The notes under the pieces: generated by a model
Seen by the model: only the letters and a program-made list of their open reading frames with translations
What the model was told of the DNA's origin: nothing
Database searches by the model: none
Position numbers and translations under genes: made by a program
In this document: positions 16,925-28,168 of the stretch, piece by piece
Position numbering within the stretch: position 1 is the first letter of the stretch
Layout of the letters: every line of letters begins with the position of its first letter
Source: Lachnospiraceae bacterium
GTDB lineage: Bacteria > Bacillota > Clostridia > Lachnospirales > Lachnospiraceae
Reading direction: 5' to 3'
Assembly (NCBI GenBank): GCA_017405805.1
Contig: JAFQZU010000036.1
Span: forward strand, 1-37,485
DNA length: 37,485 bases

Positions 16925-17007
16925 GCCGGCGTGTCGGAATGGCAGACGAGGCAGACTCAAAATCTGCTGTCCGAGAGGGCGTGTGGGTTCGAGTCCCACC
17001 GCCGGCA
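16925..17007 (+). tRNA. tRNA-Leu (anticodon CAA)
   Basis: The 83-base sequence folds as a class II tRNA. The acceptor stem GCCGGCG/CGCCGGC is complete with discriminator A. The anticodon stem GCAGA/TCTGC encloses the loop CTCAAAA, giving anticodon CAA (reads UUG). A long variable arm and the T-loop sequence GGGTTCGAGTCCC are present. CCA is not encoded and must be added after transcription. Confidence 0.97.
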
Positions 17008-17060: not shown

Positions 17061-17186
17061 GATGCTCTGGGAAGGAGATAAATAACGGGTTCGCCTTTAT
17101 GGAGTCGATTAAGATAAAACTAACTGATTATCATGAAATAAATACGTGATGAGAAACATGGAAGCAAATGGTAAAGGAGGCATCTT

Positions 17187-17507
17187 ATGTTTATACTGGA
17201 TTGTTTCAAACATTGCAACTGGAAGGCAGCCAGGCTGATCGGCTGCGGTGCACTGCTGGGTTCCTATGGAGTCAGGATCCTGTCCAGCAGGGATGCGAAG
17301 AAGGTATATACGGAAGGCACGGCAGCGGTCCTTCGCATGAAGGATGAAGTTCTTAAGGATGTCACCACGATCTGCGAGAACTGCAGCGATATCGCGGCGG
17401 ATGCCAAAGAGATCAACGAGAGGCGTCAGGCAGAGATCGATGCTCAGCAGATCGAGGACGCCAGGGCGGTGCTGGCGGCGGCAGATCACGCAGAGCGCCC
17501 CGAGTGA
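17187..17507 (+). CDS. DUF6110-type small protein, partner of the metal ATPase
   Basis: 106 aa. The N terminus carries Cys6, His10 and Cys12, then a hydrophobic Ala/Gly/Leu-rich stretch (residues 15-33) that could insert in the membrane. A charged helix follows with a CENC motif and Glu/Ala/Arg-rich coil. It resembles DUF6110 proteins, which to my knowledge are found next to heavy-metal P-type ATPases in Clostridia and have no assigned function. AAAGGAGG precedes the ATG. The ATPase begins only 7 bases after its stop, so they form one operon. A metal-chaperone or ATPase-accessory role is inferred from context. Confidence 0.75.
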   Translation: MFILDCFKHCNWKAARLIGCGALLGSYGVRILSSRDAKKVYTEGTAAVLRMKDEVLKDVTTICENCSDIAADAKEINERRQAEIDAQQIEDARAVLAAADHAERPE

Positions 17508-17514
17508 GAACGTT

Positions 17515-19602
17515 ATGAAATGCAGAATACTACATGAATCGGGAGGCCGCATACGCGTCAGAATGGGCCAGCGCCGTATGACCATGGCGCAGGCGGACCG
17601 GCTGCAGTATTATCTGTCAGCGCTCCCGGAAGTAGTCAAAGCAACCGTCAGCGACCGGACCATGGATGCGACGATTCTTTTTGACAAGGGTAACAGACAG
17701 GCGCGGGAGAATATTATTTCGGCCCTTTCGACGTTTGATTACGCGCATTCCGAGGTCGAGGTGCCGGAGCACACCGGACGTTCGCTCAGCAGGACTTACG
17801 AGGACAAGCTTTTCTTCCTTGTGATGGGGCGCGCATTTCGGGCGTTTGTCCTGCCGGATCCGGTGAATCGTGTCTACAACCTGGTCAAGGCGCTCCGTTA
17901 CATCGGCGAGGGACTGCGGTGCCTTCGCAAGGGAAAACTGGAAGTGCCGGTGCTGGATGCGACGACGATCGCCGTTTCCATTCTGCGGGACGACTATTCC
18001 ACGGCCGGATCCGTCATGTTCCTTCTGGATGCAGGCGCGCTCCTGGAGGAGTGGACCCACAAGAAATCGGTCGATGACCTGGCCCGGCGCATGTATATTA
18101 ACGCGGACAAGGCCTGGGTCTGCAGCCGGGACGGAGAGGAGGTCCTGGTCTCCGTGGCAGACGTTAAGCCCGGCGACTATGTAGTGGTCCGGACGGGCAA
18201 CGTCATCCCGCTCGACGGCATTGTCGAGACCGGAGAGGGAAGTGTCAACCAGGCCTCTATGACGGGAGAATCACTGCCGGTCCGCAAGGATGCGGGCGCT
18301 TACGTTTACGCGGGCACTGTCCTGGAAGAGGGAGAGCTGAAATTCCGCGTCGAGAAGGCCTTGGGCAGCGGCCGGTACGATAAGATCGTGTCCATGATCG
18401 AAGATTCCGAGAAGCTCAAATCCGCGACCGAGAGCCGGGCGGCGCATCTGGCAGATTCGCTGGTACCCTGGTCTCTGGGCGGCACGCTCCTGACTTACGC
18501 CATTACCCGCAATGCGACGCGCGCCCTGTCCTTCCTCATGGTGGATTTCTCCTGCGCGCTCAAGCTGGCCATGCCCATAACGGTTCTGTCAGCCATGCGC
18601 GAGTGCAGTGACCATCACATCAATGTCAAGGGAGGCAAGTTCCTGGAAGCCGTCGCGCAGGCGGACTCCATTGTATTCGACAAAACAGGGACCCTGACCA
18701 GGTCGACGCCCAGTGTCCGCAGGGTGATCACTTTTGGCGGACGGTCGGAGACCGAGATGCTGCGCCTTGCAGCCTGCCTGGAAGAGCATTTTCCGCATTC
18801 CATAGCCAATGCGGTCGTCCGTGAGGCGGAAAAGCGGGGACTGGTCCATGAGGAGCGCCACACGAAGGTAGAGTATGTAGTGGCGCACGGCATCGCAAGT
18901 TCCGTGGACGGCGTCCGCGCCCTGATCGGCAGCTATCATTTTATATTTGAAGATGAAAACTGCAGGATCCCGGATACAGAGGAAGACCGTGCCCACTTCG
19001 AGGCGCTGCCCGATGACTGCACCCTTCTTTATCTGGCGCTTGGGGAGACGCTTGCCGCAGTGATCTGTATCGAGGATCCCATCCGCCCGGAGGCTGTCCA
19101 CGTCGTAGGTGACCTGCGGGAGGCTGGCTTCTCCCGCGTCGTTATGATGACCGGAGACAGCCATAAGACAGCAGCCGCAGTCGCATCAAGCCTGGGGATG
19201 GATGATTTCTATGCCGAAGTCCTTCCGGAGGACAAGGCCGCTTTCATCCGGAGCGAGCACAAAGCGGGACGCAAGGTCATTATGATCGGCGACGGCATCA
19301 ATGATTCGCCGGCTCTGTCCGAAGCGGATGCCGGCATTGCCATTGCTTCCGGCGCAGCCATCACCCGGGAGATCGCCGATATTACCATCTCAGCGGACGA
19401 TCTGCGCGAACTTGTCGTCCTGCGCCGTATCAGCAACGCTCTGATGGACCGGATCGACAGAAACTACCGCCGTATTATGACCTTCAACGGCGCGCTGATC
19501 GTCCTGGGTCTTCTGGGGCTTATGCCATCCGCGCGCGCGGCGCTTCTGCACAACGCTTCCACCATCTATTTCAGCGTGGACAGCATGAAACCGCTGCTGT
19601 AA
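17515..19602 (+). CDS. P1B-type heavy-metal-translocating ATPase, atypical SCALK membrane motif
   Basis: 695 aa. An N-terminal HMA-like region of about 80 residues lacks the usual metal-binding CxxC. The actuator domain has SMTGESLPV, the phosphorylation site is Asp389 in FDKTGTLT, and the hinge is MIGDGINDSPALSEADAGIA. In the metal-binding transmembrane helix, where most P1B pumps have CPC or SPC, this one has Ser346-Cys347-Ala348 followed by Lys350 (FSCALKLAMP), so substrate class cannot be assigned. The N-terminal helices are short and weakly hydrophobic. The start is ATG 17515; reading further upstream would run through the DUF6110 gene in another frame. Probable role: export of a transition metal. 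Confidence 0.88.
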   Translation: MKCRILHESGGRIRVRMGQRRMTMAQADRLQYYLSALPEVVKATVSDRTMDATILFDKGNRQARENIISALSTFDYAHSEVEVPEHTGRSLSRTYEDKLFFLVMGRAFRAFVLPDPVNRVYNLVKALRYIGEGLRCLRKGKLEVPVLDATTIAVSILRDDYSTAGSVMFLLDAGALLEEWTHKKSVDDLARRMYINADKAWVCSRDGEEVLVSVADVKPGDYVVVRTGNVIPLDGIVETGEGSVNQASMTGESLPVRKDAGAYVYAGTVLEEGELKFRVEKALGSGRYDKIVSMIEDSEKLKSATESRAAHLADSLVPWSLGGTLLTYAITRNATRALSFLMVDFSCALKLAMPITVLSAMRECSDHHINVKGGKFLEAVAQADSIVFDKTGTLTRSTPSVRRVITFGGRSETEMLRLAACLEEHFPHSIANAVVREAEKRGLVHEERHTKVEYVVAHGIASSVDGVRALIGSYHFIFEDENCRIPDTEEDRAHFEALPDDCTLLYLALGETLAAVICIEDPIRPEAVHVVGDLREAGFSRVVMMTGDSHKTAAAVASSLGMDDFYAEVLPEDKAAFIRSEHKAGRKVIMIGDGINDSPALSEADAGIAIASGAAITREIADITISADDLRELVVLRRISNALMDRIDRNYRRIMTFNGALIVLGLLGLMPSARAALLHNASTIYFSVDSMKPLL

Positions 19603-20739: not shown

Positions 20740-20755
20740 GTTAAATTTAACTAAT
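20740..20755. promoter_or_regulatory. GTTAG-N6-CTAAC family operator, site A
   Basis: GTTAAATTTAACTAAT fits the 16-bp dyad shared by six sites in this region. It lies just upstream of the -35 box of the small HTH gene. Confidence 0.5.
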
Positions 20756-20762
20756 TTTTTTC

Positions 20763-20791
20763 TTGACTTCTCCAGTTAGACGTAATAAACT
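20763..20791 (+). promoter_or_regulatory. Promoter of the small AraC-type HTH gene with overlapping operator B
   Basis: TTGACT (20763-20768) and TAAACT (20786-20791) are spaced by 17 bases. Operator B, GTTAGACGTAATAAAC (20775-20790), fills the spacer and includes most of the -10. A bound repressor would block polymerase. Confidence 0.7.
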
Positions 20792-20793
20792 CT

Positions 20794-20819
20794 AAGAAGT
20801 TAAATGATACTAACTTCTT
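20794..20819. promoter_or_regulatory. Operator C, extended dyad
   Basis: The arms AAGAAGTTA and TAACTTCTT (9 bases each, perfect) flank eight bases. The core GTTAAATGATACTAAC (20799-20814) fits the shared operator pattern and lies at or just after the expected transcript start. Confidence 0.7.
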
Positions 20820-20830
20820 GGAGATATATG

Positions 20831-21226
20831 ATGGACTTAACGGTTGCCGATGTAGGAAAGGGCGGATGCACTGCAATACAGCAGGAAGTTGCCCTGCAGA
20901 CGATGGACTATCTGGGACAGCATATCGGAGATAAGGTGACGATCCGTGAAATAGCGAAGACGCTGCATGTGTCCGAGACGCATTTAAAGACAAGCTTTCG
21001 CGCCTATTACGGATCGTCGGTGTACGCGTCCTTTAAAAGAATGAAGATGGAAAAGGCGGCCGGAATGCTCGCCTCCACGGACAGGACCGTACTGGCCATA
21101 GCTGGCGGCCTCGGATATGAAAACAGCAGCAAGTTCGCAAGTGCGTTTCGCAGTGTGTACAGTGTTTCGCCCAGTGACTACCGGGCGGACACCCGAAACA
21201 GGAGAGGGAAGAGCACAAAAGGCTGA
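20831..21226 (+). CDS. Stand-alone AraC-type DNA-binding protein
   Basis: 131 aa consisting almost entirely of an AraC/XylS-type double helix-turn-helix: VTIREIAKTLHVSETHLKTSF, then a linker, then VLAIAGGLGYENSSKFASAF. There is no sensor domain, so it either responds through abundance or needs a partner. The chosen ATG has GGAG seven bases upstream; an adjacent ATG (20828) is only four bases from it. Three copies of the shared operator cover its promoter. It therefore looks like a regulated member of the metal-type regulon that in turn activates other genes. A weak hairpin (21265-21282) follows the gene. Confidence 0.8.
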   Translation: MDLTVADVGKGGCTAIQQEVALQTMDYLGQHIGDKVTIREIAKTLHVSETHLKTSFRAYYGSSVYASFKRMKMEKAAGMLASTDRTVLAIAGGLGYENSSKFASAFRSVYSVSPSDYRADTRNRRGKSTKG

Positions 21227-21287
21227 CCGCGTGTCTTCCGGGAAGAATAATGGGGTGAAAGGGATGCGCCCGCAAGGGCGCAAATCT

Positions 21288-21316
21288 TTCGGAACATGGT
21301 TAGACAAAACTAACGA
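21288..21316 (+). promoter_or_regulatory. Operator D with overlapping promoter of DUF2325-DUF3793-flavodoxin
   Basis: GTTAGACAAAACTAAC (21299-21314) matches the consensus dyad exactly. A possible weak promoter, TTCGGA-17-TAACGA, uses the right half-site TAAC as the start of its -10, the same geometry as at sites B and E. Confidence 0.65.
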
Positions 21317-21349
21317 AGGCGATGGGGGTCTGGGAGAACGGAGGTAAAA

Positions 21350-21634
21350 ATGAGCATAGTAATTCTGGGCGGCAACGAATGTATGGAGAGGCAGTATAAG
21401 GATCTGTGCAAGGCGTACCGGTGCAGGGCGAAAATCTTTATCAAGCCCTCCGGGAGCCTGAAGAACAAGCTGGGAAATCCGGATCTTCTGATCTGTTTCA
21501 CGAGCTGCCTGTCCCACAAAGTGCTGCGCAACGCGCAGAATGAGCTGAAGGGGTGCAGCGCTGCGGTTGAGCATTCCCGCACGGCGTCCATGGCGGCACT
21601 CCGTTCCATTCTCGAGAAATATACGGCGGCATAA
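21350..21634 (+). CDS. DUF2325 family protein
   Basis: 94 aa, a single DUF2325 domain: SIVILGGNECMERQYKDLCK at the N terminus, then CRAKIFIKPSGSLKNKLG and LLICFTSCLSHKVL. The pattern suggests a small Rossmann-like fold without catalytic annotation. GGAGGT precedes the ATG. It is the first gene of a three-gene unit with DUF3793 and flavodoxin, downstream of operator D. Small DUF2325 proteins in Clostridia are, as I recall, found near ferrous-iron transport and flavodoxin genes, which fits a role in metal limitation, but the biochemical function is unknown. Confidence 0.8.
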   Translation: MSIVILGGNECMERQYKDLCKAYRCRAKIFIKPSGSLKNKLGNPDLLICFTSCLSHKVLRNAQNELKGCSAAVEHSRTASMAALRSILEKYTAA

Positions 21635-21657
21635 CAAATATATGGCGGTAAAAAGAG

Positions 21658-22209
21658 ATGGCGGACGAACTTTTGGTGCGTTTTGGCGCACCGACACTTG
21701 CCGGGATCAAGACCGGAAGTCTTTTTAGTTATGAATACGGAAGCAGGAAAAGACTGGCAGCCGAGCTCCGGGAACTGAACCGGGTCCTGGGTCCCAAGGG
21801 ACTGCGGATCCTCCCCATGCGGTTTGGAAAAGAACGGGTACTGCTCTATGTATACCGCCCGTTGGATCTGACCAGGGATCTCGGCAGGAAGGATGCACTT
21901 TCCATTCTTCACGAGACGGGATACCGTTCCGATGACGCGCAGGGGTGCGTGGCAGAGCTCATGAGCAGGCTTCGCAGCGGAAAACCGTTTCCGCACGAAA
22001 TCGGATTGTTCCTGAGTTATCCGCCGGAGGATGTGCGAGGGTTTATAGAAAATCACGCAGGCGGATATAAACTGATCGGCGCGTGGAAAGTCTACGGGGA
22101 CGTGGAAAAAGCCCGCAGGACTTTCGACAGGTATGCCCGGTGCACAGATACTTATTGCAAACAGTGGGCCAGCGGCGTTTCTATCGGGAGACTCGCTGTG
22201 GCTGTTTGA
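21658..22209 (+). CDS. DUF3793 family protein
   Basis: 183 aa. DUF3793-type features include FGAPTLAGIKTGSLFSY near the N terminus, LNRVLGPKGLRILPM, and PFPHEIGLFLSYPPEDVRGF; the C-terminal part contains GAWKVYGDVEKARRTFDRY and a cysteine pair (CTDTYC). No membrane segment or signal peptide is seen. It lies 23 bases after DUF2325 and 45 bases before flavodoxin in the same direction, so it is co-transcribed. The family recurs beside flavodoxin in Firmicutes and has no known activity; a link to iron or redox stress is inferred from context only. Confidence 0.8.
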   Translation: MADELLVRFGAPTLAGIKTGSLFSYEYGSRKRLAAELRELNRVLGPKGLRILPMRFGKERVLLYVYRPLDLTRDLGRKDALSILHETGYRSDDAQGCVAELMSRLRSGKPFPHEIGLFLSYPPEDVRGFIENHAGGYKLIGAWKVYGDVEKARRTFDRYARCTDTYCKQWASGVSIGRLAVAV

Positions 22210-22254
22210 CATACACAGTCATTACAAATCATTACAGCATGAAAGGAAAGAAAA

Positions 22255-22677
22255 ATGAGCAAAGTGGCAGTAGTTTACTGGAGCGGTACCGGAAATACAC
22301 AGATCATGGCAGACGCGGTGGAGGAAGGGATCCGCGGCAAGGGCGGCGAAGCTGTCATGATGGGACCGGAGGCTTTCAGCGCGAAGGATGTTGCTTCCTA
22401 TGACGCGATCGCTTTCGGCTGTCCTGCCATGGGCGCGGAAGTTCTGGAAGAGGCAGAGTATCAGCCCATGTGGGATGACGTGAAAGGATCTCTGTCCGGA
22501 AAGAAGATCGCTCTGTTCGGCTCTTACGGCTGGGGGGACGGCGAGTGGATGCGCACATGGGAAGACGAGGCCCGCTCCTGCGGCGCAGATCTGGTCGTGG
22601 ACTGCGTCATGGCCAACAACGAGCCTGACGACGAGGCGAAGGAAGCCTGCAGAAATCTGGGCGCTGCGCTCGTCTGA
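22255..22677 (+). CDS. Flavodoxin
   Basis: 140 aa, standard short-chain flavodoxin. The FMN phosphate loop is VVYWSGTGNTQIMADAV. The isoalloxazine-contacting regions are FGCPAMGAE (50s loop) and LFGSYGWGDGEWM (90s loop, with the aromatic residue that stacks on FMN). It carries one or two electrons at low potential in the cytoplasm and typically replaces ferredoxin when iron is scarce, which agrees with the metal-type operator at the head of its operon. AAAGGAAAG precedes the ATG. A strong terminator follows at 22705. Confidence 0.95.
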   Translation: MSKVAVVYWSGTGNTQIMADAVEEGIRGKGGEAVMMGPEAFSAKDVASYDAIAFGCPAMGAEVLEEAEYQPMWDDVKGSLSGKKIALFGSYGWGDGEWMRTWEDEARSCGADLVVDCVMANNEPDDEAKEACRNLGAALV

Positions 22678-22704
22678 GCTGTATATTTTTCTCTGGGGGT
22701 GTGT

Positions 22705-22738
22705 ACCGGATGGCTTGTGTGCCATCCGGTTTTTTTTC
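22705..22738 (+). terminator. Terminator after flavodoxin
   Basis: ACCGGATGGC and GCCATCCGGT flank a 6-base loop and are followed by a run of eight or more T. Confidence 0.95.
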
Positions 22739-22791
22739 TTGCAAGGGAAGTTAGATGGTGCTAACATAGATTGATGTTAGAAATCACTAAT
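22739..22791 (+). promoter_or_regulatory. Promoter of the ABC operon with tandem operators E and F
   Basis: TTGCAA (22739-22744) and TAACAT (22762-22767) are spaced by 17 bases. Operator E, GTTAGATGGTGCTAAC (22750-22765), fills the spacer and ends inside the -10. Operator F, GTTAGAAATCACTAAT (22776-22791), lies just downstream of the expected transcript start. Confidence 0.7.
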
Positions 22792-22820: not shown

Positions 22821-23531
22821 ATGAGACAGGATCCTTTTTTGGAAATCAGGCAGATCAGAAAATCCTTCGGGACGGGAGAGAACCGCGTGGAAGTGCTGCG
22901 CGGGATCGACCTCTCCCTTGATAAAGGGACTTTCTGCGTGCTTCTGGGGCCGTCCGGCTCCGGCAAGTCGACGCTCTTAAATATCGTGGGGGGAATAGAC
23001 GGGGCGGACAGCGGCGATATCGTGATCAGCGGCGAGAAGATGTCCTCCATGAGCGAGAAAAAGCTTACCCTGTACCGCAGACACCACCTGGGATATATTT
23101 TTCAGATGTACAATCTGATCCCGAATCTGACCGTGCGGGAGAATATTGAAGTCGGTGCTTATCTGAGCAAAAACCCGCTGTCCGTGGACGATCTTCTGCA
23201 CACGCTCGGACTGTGGGAGCACCGGGGCAAAGTGCCCGGCCAGCTTTCCGGCGGACAGCAGCAGAGAACGGCGATCGGACGCGCGGTCGTCAAAAATCCG
23301 GATATCCTCCTCTGCGACGAGCCGACAGGCGCGCTGGACTACAAAACCTCCAAGGATATCCTTTCACTCATTGAAAAGGTAAACCGCTTATATGGAAACA
23401 CGGTGATCATGGTCACGCATAATGACGCGATCCGGAACATGGCGGACGTGGTGGTAAAACTTCGTGACGGCAGTATCTCCAAGATCTACCGGAATGCGGT
23501 ACGGACGAGAGCGGAGGATCTGGAGTGGTGA
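22821..23531 (+). CDS. ABC transporter ATP-binding protein (MacB/LolD type)
   Basis: 236 aa. Walker A is [11 protein letters not shown], the signature is LSGGQQQR, Walker B is [12 protein letters not shown] and the switch His is in VMVTHN. It is of the class that energises FtsX-type permeases, and the permease follows immediately with overlapping stop and start. There is no strong ribosome site upstream of the ATG (only GTAAGG). The gene is first in the three-gene unit behind operators E and F, so expression should follow the same signal as flavodoxin. Such transporters export peptides, lipids or lipoproteins, or act as mechanical transducers; the substrate is unknown. Confidence 0.93.
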
Positions 23532-25867: not shown

Positions 25868-25894
25868 GGCAGTGTTTGCCGCGGAGTGGCAGAA

Positions 25895-28168
25895 ATGATG
25901 AGCAGATTTGACAGGAAGAAAAACAAAGCGGCTGCGGGAAAACGGGCTCTGGCCGGCCCGCTTCTGCTGGCGGTGATACTGGCAGCGGGCGGCTGCGCGG
26001 GAGCCGGGACAGCGCCCGCTCCGGAAACGGAAAAGCAACAGGAGACCGGGGAGAATACAAAAAACTGGGAGGCGGCAGAAGAAAACGCCTTTCGTCCCCG
26101 GCCCGGTTCACCCACCGTGACGCCCGGCAGAAAAGAGGAGACCGTCAACGTAAAAGCCGATGCGGGCGGGACTCCTTACGAAGTTGTTGTGGAGGCGGAA
26201 TTGTCCGAAATTGCGGGGCGGGACCCGATCCTGGACCGCTCGGACCTGCGGGACATCCGCAACCGGGAGGGGGGAGAGGCCTTCTATCGTACCGATGACG
26301 GCATGCTCTACTGGGAGAACCTCGGGAATGCGGTGAAGTACGAGGGATACAGCGACAGAGAACTCCCTGTGGATGTGCGCGTCACGTATTATCTTGACGG
26401 GCAGGAACTGTCCCCCGCGGAGATCGCGGGGAAGAGCGGCGACGTCAGGATCCGCTTCGATTACGATAACCGCACCGTGGAACAGGCATTGCGCCGGGGA
26501 GAAGAGGATCCCGTCTGCGTGCCCTTTATGGCGATCTCGACCTTGATCCTTCCAAAGGATATCTTCTCGCAGGTCAGCGTTAAGAATGGGAGGACGACGG
26601 CGATGGGGGATAATACCATTGTCATCGGCGCGGCCTTCCCCGGACTGGAGGAGAGCCTGCGGCCGCAGGAGTATGAACCCACGGAGGAGATTGAGATCCC
26701 GTCCTATGTAGAGATCAGCGCCCACGCCGAGAAGTTTGCGCTGGATTTTACGGCGACCATGCTCGGCACAGGGCTGTTCAAGGAAATTGAGGAAGAGGAC
26801 CTGGATGACGCGGACGGCGTGCGCAGCGACATGGATGAGCTCAAGGACGCCTCACGGGAGATGGCGGACGGAGCGGGGGAACTGGCAGACGGCGCAGGGG
26901 AGCTCGGAGACTATCTGGACAAGTATTTTTCCGGCGTTTCGGCCCTTAAGGAAGGGGCCGGGAGCATGGAAGAAGGGCTCGGGCTCCTGAGCGAAAAGGC
27001 AGCGTCCCTGCAGGAAGGCGCGGACGCAATGCAGACGGGGCTGCAGCAGATCGACACGGCGCTCGGTGCGCTGGATCCGGAGCAGCTGGCCGGCGCGGCA
27101 GAGGATCCGCAGCTGAAAGCGGCGGCAGAGGCGGCGGCCTCCCTTGAGGAGGACGGACAAAAACTCACGGCGCTGCTTTCGGACACAAAGAGCGCCCTTG
27201 CCGGCTTATCCGAATTCTCAAAGAAGGCAGCCACGCATAATGAGAGCCTGGAGAAGGCAAAGGCGGCGCTCGCAGAGACAGAGACGCCCGGGATCGACCG
27301 CGGGAAGCTGGGCGAAGAACTGGCGGCCCAGGTTAACGGTCAAGTCGGAGAAGGCTGGGAAGCGGCACAGGAAGAAGTCCGCGCACAGGCACTGGACGCG
27401 GCCCTCCAGGTCATTGAGGAACAGGAGGGACTGGACGACGAGACGAAAGAGTCGCTTAAGAGCGGCGTAACGGAGAGGATCGCTTCCGCCTCGGCACAGT
27501 TTCCGGAGATCACACTGGATCTGTCCGAAAGCGAGAGCCTCGATGAGGCGGAGCAGTCGGCAGCGGATGCCGTTTCGGAGGCCAAAGGCGTTCTGGAAGG
27601 CGTCAATGCCCTGGAGCTGACGGATCTGGAGGCGCTTGCCTCCCTGGATACGGAGACGATGGGGACCACGGTCGAAAATATGGGCAAAAGCCTGGAGACG
27701 CTCGCGGCAGGACTGGAGGCGTCGGCCGGGTCGGCGGAGGCTGTGACGGCGCTGCAGGAGCAGCTGGGGACACTCAGAAAGGGTATTGCGCAGCTCACGA
27801 AGGGAAGCGAGGGCCTCTCGGAGGGCGTGGCTGCCTTCAGCACCGGGATCGGACAGCTGAAAGCCGGAGCGGAAGCCTTCTCGGAGGGACTGTCGCAGAT
27901 CGCGGAAGCCGGAGGAGAACTTGGAGATGCGTATTGCGGACTTGCGGAGGGGCTGCAGGCGCTCGCGGACGGAATAGAGAAATTTGACGAGGAGGCCATC
28001 GGGGAACTGGCGGATCTTGCGGGAGAAGATCTCACAGGCCTCATCGGCAGAATACGGGCAGTCCGCCGGGCGGATCTGCAGTACTCCAATTTTTCCGGGA
28101 TCCTGGAAGGCCAGGAAGGAAGCGTCCGCTTCCTGATCGAGACGGATGAGATCAGCGCGGAGAATTGA
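25895..28168 (+). CDS. Large coiled-coil lipoprotein (YhgE/Pip-like repeats)
   Basis: About 757 aa. The N terminus is a signal peptide with lipobox AAGGC near residue 30. Residues 30 to about 270 form a beta-rich region containing VRVTYYLDGQELSP and VPFMAISTLILP. A long helical region follows with repeated motifs of the type ADGAGELADGAGEL and LQEGADAMQTGLQQID, heptad-like Gly/Ala/Glu/Leu/Ser patterns also seen in YhgE/Pip and related envelope proteins. No C-terminal membrane helix is seen. GCGGAG precedes ATG 25895. It sits 27 bases after the permease and is probably the extracytoplasmic part of the same export or envelope complex. Function unknown. Confidence 0.75.
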   Translation: MMSRFDRKKNKAAAGKRALAGPLLLAVILAAGGCAGAGTAPAPETEKQQETGENTKNWEAAEENAFRPRPGSPTVTPGRKEETVNVKADAGGTPYEVVVEAELSEIAGRDPILDRSDLRDIRNREGGEAFYRTDDGMLYWENLGNAVKYEGYSDRELPVDVRVTYYLDGQELSPAEIAGKSGDVRIRFDYDNRTVEQALRRGEEDPVCVPFMAISTLILPKDIFSQVSVKNGRTTAMGDNTIVIGAAFPGLEESLRPQEYEPTEEIEIPSYVEISAHAEKFALDFTATMLGTGLFKEIEEEDLDDADGVRSDMDELKDASREMADGAGELADGAGELGDYLDKYFSGVSALKEGAGSMEEGLGLLSEKAASLQEGADAMQTGLQQIDTALGALDPEQLAGAAEDPQLKAAAEAAASLEEDGQKLTALLSDTKSALAGLSEFSKKAATHNESLEKAKAALAETETPGIDRGKLGEELAAQVNGQVGEGWEAAQEEVRAQALDAALQVIEEQEGLDDETKESLKSGVTERIASASAQFPEITLDLSESESLDEAEQSAADAVSEAKGVLEGVNALELTDLEALASLDTETMGTTVENMGKSLETLAAGLEASAGSAEAVTALQEQLGTLRKGIAQLTKGSEGLSEGVAAFSTGIGQLKAGAEAFSEGLSQIAEAGGELGDAYCGLAEGLQALADGIEKFDEEAIGELADLAGEDLTGLIGRIRAVRRADLQYSNFSGILEGQEGSVRFLIETDEISAEN

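Follow-up and report, generated by a model that had tools for sequence, protein, structure and literature searches.

Dyad sites beside iron genes in Lachnospiraceae as probable operators of a two-domain DtxR-type repressor

Introduction

The closest described counterparts of the element considered here, a 16-bp dyad of the form GTTAG-N6-CTAAC, are the operators of the IdeR/DtxR iron repressors of Actinobacteria. According to the excerpted text of one paper, these repressors act at a 19-bp box (TTAGGTTAGSCTAACCTAA), and one IdeR dimer can bind a half-site, the consensus of which is restated as TTAGGNNNNCCTAA (PMC8464063). By our own arithmetic from repeats 1+3 and 2+4 of that text, the 19-bp box would correspond to two half-sites offset by five bases (PMC8464063). 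In the present study, six reported copies of the dyad were analyzed in a 37,485-bp stretch of a Lachnospiraceae genome (GenBank assembly GCA_017405805.1, contig JAFQZU010000036.1, positions 1 to 37,485; hereafter the window), and the motif was followed through the source genome, through 120 genomes of the family and through genomes of other families.

The half-site TTAGGNNNNCCTAA reads as TTAG-N6-CTAA, which is the spacing of the sites described here. The original prediction for the window had recognized a DtxR-type metalloregulator dyad but judged its spacing not to be the classic one. The first part is backed by gene linkage, co-occurrence and the match to the IdeR half-site; the second must be withdrawn, since TTAG-N6-CTAA is the published single-dimer half-site, as given in the excerpt (PMC8464063). 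The likeness extends to iron-gene targets, to the ligands Cys102, Glu105 and His106, and to an operator that overlaps the -10 box or the transcript start, so far as the excerpted texts describe them (PMC8464063; PMC10317159). Differences are also apparent. Compared with the IdeR half-site, the sites here add an outer G and C, and an inner G follows TTAG in only 8% of exact sites. Unlike the half-sites of the double-dimer box, the nearest neighboring sites are 14 bp apart (two locus sets), and GTTAG-N1-CTAAC occurs 0, 0 and 1 times in three locus sets, such that double-dimer boxes were not seen there. The proteins proposed here as binders lack an SH3-like domain and mostly carry Asp or Asn rather than Met at position 10, and the named carriers belong mostly to the Lachnospiraceae rather than the Actinobacteria.

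Two further regulator families are relevant. In the excerpted part of a review, sulphur ligands are said to favor Fe(II), while MntR has Asp/Asn and Glu at the two places concerned; the same text has low-GC Gram-positive bacteria use Fur for iron, with DtxR-family proteins limited to manganese (PMC10317159). Fur regulation in such bacteria, including that of fezAB in Clostridioides difficile, resembles the present case in its iron targets, and a fezAB-like pair occurs in the window (PMC12574912, in excerpt); the regulator family and the operator proposed here are, however, different ones. Among the published titles and abstract openings found, none described the motif or its regulon, in searches that did not use the motif string.

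Distribution of the Dyad and Its Downstream Genes

By mismatch counts alone, the window copies are not significant and the single source genome shows no raw excess; a comparison between genomes was therefore needed, and by this comparison the dyad marks a regulon across the family, with iron genes among its targets. In the 120 family genomes, 682 exact copies were counted against 195 of the reversed pattern CAATC-N6-GATTG, which served as the control. The motif was the more frequent of the two in 98 genomes, the less frequent in 13 and equal in nine, and an exact copy was present in 112. The control pattern contains no stop codons, whereas those of the motif close two of the three reading frames on each strand; the contrast between coding and non-coding sequence is thereby inflated, and more weight is given below to spacing, orthologous loci and downstream genes.

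The N6 spacing is strongly preferred. In 60 DUF3793 and FeoA loci, 62 copies have this spacing and every other spacing from 0 to 20 occurs 0 or 1 times; the corresponding figures for 69 DtxR loci are 61 copies and again 0 or 1 over the same range. Some DtxR regions had been drawn with sites in view (e.g., L157 and L164) or overlapped another set (L150), and removal of seven such regions left 49 N6 copies in 62 loci, with at most one at any other spacing. In 80 named loci, 45 copies were found at N6 and no more than two at any other spacing between 0 and 15.

Scatter in coding sequence and loss from orthologous loci had been named in the original prediction as evidence that would speak against it, and neither was observed in the sampled loci. 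Among the fetched DUF3793 loci, 24 of 30 carry an exact site and 28 of 30 a site with at most one mismatch; for FeoA loci, these numbers are 20 and 23 of 30. Only two of 30 sampled exact-motif loci have the motif in coding sequence, compared with 20 of 30 for the control, a contrast inflated by the stop codons mentioned above. A gene start follows within 350 bp in 29 of 30 motif loci but in 13 of 30 control loci. This test used greedy open reading frame (ORF) calls, and the sole motif locus without a start is the window itself (L084), where a shadow frame was chosen.

The downstream genes point in the same direction. Pfam families were assigned to 40 of them (39 taken automatically, plus the DUF2325 gene of the window added by hand); among the 25 of 59 families that were listed are FeoA (four), DtxR (four), FeoB (three), DUF2325 (two), AraC-type (two), ApbE, Shp heme-binding and DUF3793 (one each). 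No iron family was found among 16 control downstream genes. Thus, the enrichment before metal genes that had been anticipated is seen in the sampled loci, where the motif precedes feoA, feoB, apbE, heme-binding, flavodoxin-operon and dtxR genes. As a separate observation, one family locus (L143 of genome G021, positions 645-773) holds approximately eight copies of a 16-bp tandem unit with CTAAC half-sites, directly following an exact site and a terminator-like hairpin.

A DtxR-Type Protein as the Candidate Binder

The protein that binds the dyad is likely a two-domain member of the DtxR/MntR superfamily, and the sites are very probably operators, each serving one dimer of an iron-sensing repressor of this kind. 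A DtxR homologue was found in 114 of the 120 family genomes; the exact motif is missing from three of the six genomes without a homologue, compared with five of the 114 with one (Fisher p 0.004). At least 40 of the 120 genomes have a DtxR-type gene no more than 5 kb from feoA, and at least 13 have one no more than 10 kb from a DUF3793 gene (union at least 48). Where fetched loci hold both dtxR and feoA, a hand count places a site (at most one mismatch) no more than 400 bp before dtxR in 23 of 29 genomes, all of them with divergent gene pairs. In the named dtxR loci, 42 of 80 have such a site; among the 31 of them with FeoA in the same locus, 28 do.

Outside the family, 161 genomes of other families in the order were compared, with a close homologue defined as E < 1e-24, a cut that we chose ourselves. 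The motif outnumbers the control 432 to 198 in the 104 genomes with a close DtxR homologue, and is outnumbered 113 to 166 in the 57 with none or a weak one; the association between motif excess and a close homologue gave a within-family permutation p of 0.0018. One genus stands apart: in family f13, genus g166 (G159, G188, G223 and G283), all four genomes have a close homologue and none has an exact motif, perhaps on account of an altered operator.

A single DtxR-type homologue was found in the source genome, a protein of 133 amino acids on contig C22. It matches the metal-binding and dimerization domain PF02742 with 66.9 bits (cut-off 27; the one match in the genome) and the winged-helix DNA-binding domain PF01325 with 34.2 bits (cut-off 26), and phmmer aligns it with MntR and DtxR structures, including PDB 2h09 and 6kta (best E 3.6e-13). 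That this protein binds the sites, that it does so as one dimer per site, that iron is its metal and that the outcome is repression are points that we infer from these comparisons.

An alignment and a tree were prepared from 82 DtxR rows (89 matches minus five duplicates, a fragment and a weak match). Cys, Glu and His occupy DtxR positions 102, 105 and 106 in all 82 rows. Beyond the ACxxEH ligand motif, the proteins extend by only 15 to 33 residues, and the C-terminal SH3-like domain is therefore absent. Position 10 is Asn in 43 rows, Asp in 32 and Met in seven. With Cys at one place and Asp or Asn at the other, the group would represent a hybrid of IdeR-type and MntR-type ligands. On the tree, genes linked to feo, DUF3793 or a site are mixed with orphan genes, although the linkage seems somewhat clustered (21 label changes against a shuffled mean of 27.3; six of 500 shuffles as low); the labels were set by hand, the columns are few and many forks are open. 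A division into two separate DtxR paralogue groups was considered and dropped, as linked and orphan genes are intermixed on the tree.

Among the alternatives, a manganese-sensing, MntR-like member of the same superfamily that runs the iron genes through manganese fares best, though we regard it as unlikely. MntR of Bacillus and Escherichia coli is likewise a two-domain protein without SH3, Asp or Asn at position 10 is shared by 75 of the 82 rows (followed by Glu 11 in most), and the best NCBIfam matches are MntR models, albeit below their cut-off. However, Cys replaces the Glu of MntR (position 102 in DtxR, 99 in MntR) in every row, a residue tied to Fe(II) selectivity in the excerpted review (PMC10317159). 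The targets also differ from those of MntR: the sampled ones include feo and heme-binding genes, and no manganese transporter appears among the 25 of 59 families listed.

Binding of the dyad by a Fur-family protein is very unlikely. The motif differs from the Fur box. The source genome has one Fur-type gene, and it lies, like the one DtxR-type gene found, on a contig other than that of the window; the original prediction was correct that the window has neither, none being found among the window proteins scanned. The best NCBIfam scores of the Fur-type protein are far under the cut-offs, no site with at most one mismatch lies in the 3.4 kb around its gene, and motif abundance tracks DtxR, in a comparison made against DtxR only. 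On the other side, FezA and FezB of C. difficile are described as Fur-repressed in the text excerpted (PMC12574912).

Sites in the Window

The strings of all six reported copies are present at their coordinates (Table 1), but only five of the six are well supported as sites. Mismatch counts alone are not significant in the window: with up to two mismatches, nine matches were found and 7.0 +/- 2.75 were expected, and 26 of 100 shuffles reached nine. A position matrix was trained on 267 sites from loci of other genomes; as these had been preselected within one mismatch of the motif, the shape of the matrix is partly given. Its top five scores in the 37 kb, 15.7 to 21.0 bits, fall on 22776, 21299, 22750, 20799 and 20740, and no score that high occurred in 60 simulated first-order Markov windows. 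These five look, with good support, like genuine sites of an iron repressor of the DtxR family. The copy at 20775 was dropped, its score being at a level expected about twice per window. A candidate near 17109 is listed as weak and is not claimed to be real.

Promoter and Terminator Geometry

According to the original prediction, the right half-site would overlap the -10 box at all three promoters. This is borne out, weakly, at 22750, where a TTGCAA/TAACAT pair (22739/22762), read by eye and under the scan threshold, agrees with the proposed geometry; a uniform overlap is not. A promoter scan of 2.4 kb gave four equal matches of 9/12 (1.5 expected in shuffles). One of them pairs TTGACT at 20763 with TAAACT at 20786-20791. 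Its -35 hexamer begins at -36 relative to 20799, a placement also enriched in other genomes, so that 20799, and not 20775, falls at the inferred transcript start. For 21299, no match lies between the upstream hairpin and the DUF2325 gene. A 9/12 match, CTGACC/AATAAT at 21223-21251, sits 5' of the hairpin, and the DUF2325 gene would therefore be reached by read-through of the hairpin.

Similar arrangements recur in other genomes. In DUF3793 loci, a near-TTGACA hexamer starts at -36 in nine of 51 sites and a near-TATAAT hexamer at -13 in seven. In a wider set of 598 site-strands, which excludes the terminator-linked class described below, -35 starts peak at -16, which places the -10 box under the site, and between -40 and -33, which places the site at the transcript start; a smaller peak at -11 corresponds to the geometry of 22750.

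A second class of sites is linked to terminators. A terminator-like hairpin with a T-rich tail ends 11-20 nt before the site in 66 of 673 site-strands, compared with 12.3 on average (range 6-33) when 22 shifted positions were examined and five to seven in five shuffles; we read the two counts of 33, at shifts of +60 and +70, as terminators between paired sites. Stem ends accumulate at -17 (17), -16 (12) and -13 (14) over a background of 2.2 per position, a distance so narrow that a chance run of upstream gene terminators is not expected to explain it. A stricter detector, used first, found hairpins at 8-26 nt in 27 of 693 site-strands and at 32 of 4580 random positions, with little signal in the named loci (2/195 vs 10/1600); the laxer detector was set after this result.

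The terminator-linked class is impure, since of 75 members eight carry TTGA near the site and eight have another operator as the hairpin. Among the remaining 59 site-strands, a promoter-like pair lies near the site in 10 (17%, against 6.3% of control positions), a Shine-Dalgarno (SD) sequence and start codon follow within 100 nt in 38 (median 32), and a promoter pair is found at -115 to -46 in 20, compared with 93 of the 598 others. Some of the hairpins are AT-rich. Six examples were folded: three, including two from the window, were clearly more stable than their shuffles (z -3.6 to -5.5), another two only weakly so (z -1.4 and -1.9), and one, from L017, was not (z 0.95). Judged by eye, the printed examples include DUF2325 starts and feoA-feoB junctions.

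The GC-rich hairpin before 21299 follows this pattern, the end of its inner stem being 16-17 nt 5' of the site, at the -17/-16 peak of other genomes. Its T-rich tail is itself paired in the lowest-energy fold, and the hairpin is absent from the results of the strict terminator scan. A DNA-bound repressor within a transcribed region could stall RNA polymerase. What distinguishes the present arrangement from such a repressor roadblock is the set distance of the site 3' of an intrinsic-terminator-like hairpin, which suggests joint action. We tentatively propose two locks, with one class of sites lying over the promoter and the other placed 11-20 nt 3' of a terminator-like stem (peaks at 16-17 and 13), where the repressor might gate intrinsic termination. 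In the second class, a promoter is mostly not recognized between stem and site, and a start with an SD sequence often follows some 30 nt later, as before DUF2325 and between feoA and feoB. With iron-loaded repressor at a terminator-linked site, RNA polymerase would be held up at the U-tract and would terminate more often, and iron would thus set the extent of read-through. Alternatively, these hairpins may act as insulation from upstream transcription or in mRNA stability.

The geometry also bears on whether the element acts as RNA, with GUUAG-N6-CUAAC forming a small hairpin at the 5' end of transcripts or in leaders. One promoter class does place the site at the transcript start, and sites are found in leaders before SD sequences; yet the large class with -35 at -16 has the site covering the -10 box, the sequence of both arms is highly conserved, which is compatible with protein-DNA recognition but no proof of it, and an Rfam scan of 14 sources returned no family other than tRNA. 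An RNA element thus has a very slim chance of being the explanation. That the adjacent AraC-type protein binds the sites as local operators is the least probable reading of all, since the motif is family-wide, AraC-type genes make up only two of 40 sampled downstream genes and a strict palindrome is unlike the direct repeats of AraC, even though two supported sites stand at the promoter of the AraC-type gene.

Genes Around the Sites

The features of the window are collected in Table 1. The start of the AraC-type gene was chosen by eye; the alternative start at 20804 would fall within an operator. Downstream of the FtsX-type permease, at 25886-28168, lies a 760-aa protein without a Pfam match, repeat-rich and lipoprotein-like by eye.

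Table 1. Sites, promoter-like and terminator-like elements, and genes of the window.
Position	Strand	Feature	Evidence or remark
16925-17007		tRNA gene	Rfam
17109..17124	.	Weak candidate site 5' of the DUF6110/P-type ATPase pair	Matrix 9.2; 0.27 expected per window
17187..17507	+	DUF6110 protein	PF19605, E 5.1e-28
17515..19602	+	Heavy-metal P-type ATPase	NCBIfam TIGR01525 above cut-off
20740..20755	.	Predicted operator site, GTTAAATTTAACTAAT	Matrix 15.7, rank five in window
20763..20791	+	Promoter-like TTGACT-17-TAAACT 5' of AraC-type gene	9/12 matches
20775..20790	.	Reported site, GTTAGACGTAATAAAC, unsupported	Matrix 5.2; ~2 such expected per window
20799..20814	.	Predicted operator site at inferred transcript start	Matrix 19.0
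20828..21226	+	AraC-type regulator, helix-turn-helix domain only	Pfam HTH_18
21265..21298	+	GC-rich hairpin TGCGCCC-GCAA-GGGCGCA, tail AATCTTT	Fold -21.8 kcal/mol, z -5.45
21299..21314	.	Predicted operator site, exact GTTAG-N6-CTAAC, 35 nt 5' of DUF2325 gene	Matrix 20.8
21350..21634	+	DUF2325 protein gene	PF10087, E 2.8e-26
21658..22209	+	DUF3793 protein gene	PF12672, E 1.1e-52
22255..22677	+	Short-chain flavodoxin gene	PF00258; NCBIfam flav_short above cut-off
22705..22730	+	Intrinsic-terminator-like stem-loop with T-run, stem end 19 nt 5' of 22750	Terminator scan, folding
22750..22765	.	Predicted operator site, exact match	Matrix 19.3
22776..22791	.	Predicted operator site, one mismatch	Matrix 21.0
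22821..23531	+	ABC transporter ATPase	PF00005
23525..25867	+	FtsX-type permease	PF02687

From gene order alone, we take the DUF6110 and P-type ATPase pair to resemble the ferrosome genes fezA/fezB. Of 30 fetched DUF6110 loci, 29 preserve the pair. Control of the ferrosome by the motif would be at most partial, because only nine of 30 of these loci carry an upstream site at up to one mismatch.

Elsewhere in the source genome, recognized iron genes accompany further sites. Of the 16 with at most one mismatch, 11 fall at four loci: the window locus (four), feoA with a FeoB-associated gene (three; L001), ApbE with a large surface protein (three; L002) and a feoAB fusion (one; L003). At L002 (contig C40, 1172-6086), an ApbE lipoprotein stands beside a surface protein of 1205 aa that has a weak Ig-like match, and sites precede both; the two possibly form a flavin-dependent surface iron system.

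Discussion

Several observations weigh against a DtxR-type iron repressor at these sites. The scan of the genome and its relatives that was originally proposed gave the family-wide excess reported above, but the source genome alone shows no raw excess, with 16 sites against 24 control matches at up to one mismatch and 12 against 18 for TTAG-N6-CTAA. Five of those 16 sites are not near recognized iron genes; by eye from the ORF list, they lie within a coding frame, in the gaps that separate convergent genes, or upstream of an amylase gene. Some sampled downstream genes (enolase, His_biosynth, AMP-binding and Trep_Strep) have no evident iron role. Linked dtxR and feoA occur without a site in six of the 29 genomes (G098, G101, G115, G019, G077 and G049). 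Outside the family, exact motifs are lacking in 12 of the 104 genomes that have a close homologue, including the four of genus g166, and at least five motifs, above the control, occur in seven genomes whose homologue is weak or absent (G194, nine vs zero; G289, five vs zero; G158, G169, G280, G299 and G149).

The C22 protein itself adds to these points. It scores below the NCBIfam MntR and DtxR cut-offs (best MntR 86.1 bits vs 153), is placed on a long branch of the tree, next to two further rows with long branches, and has Asp at position 10, as in MntR. Its gene is an orphan, with no site at up to two mismatches within the surrounding 3.2 kb. The source genome is 84% complete, such that another regulator could be absent from the assembly.

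With these points weighed, operators of a two-domain, iron-sensing DtxR-type repressor remain our preferred explanation. In the presence of ferrous iron, the dimer would hold GTTAG-N6-CTAAC, either across the -10 box or where the transcript starts. The bound dimer would then block genes for iron acquisition and iron sparing, including feoAB, apbE, heme-binding, flavodoxin and AraC-type regulator genes and the ABC transporter operon. When iron is low, the dimer would release the operator.

If this explanation holds, the iron genes in a family of anaerobes appear to be controlled by a two-domain DtxR-type protein, which would combine an MntR-like body with an IdeR-type cysteine and act at single-dimer operators, in contrast to the excerpted review text that assigns iron control in low-GC Gram-positive bacteria to Fur (PMC10317159). 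The terminator-linked sites, if they function as proposed, would give a metal sensor an unusual means of acting on polymerase during elongation.

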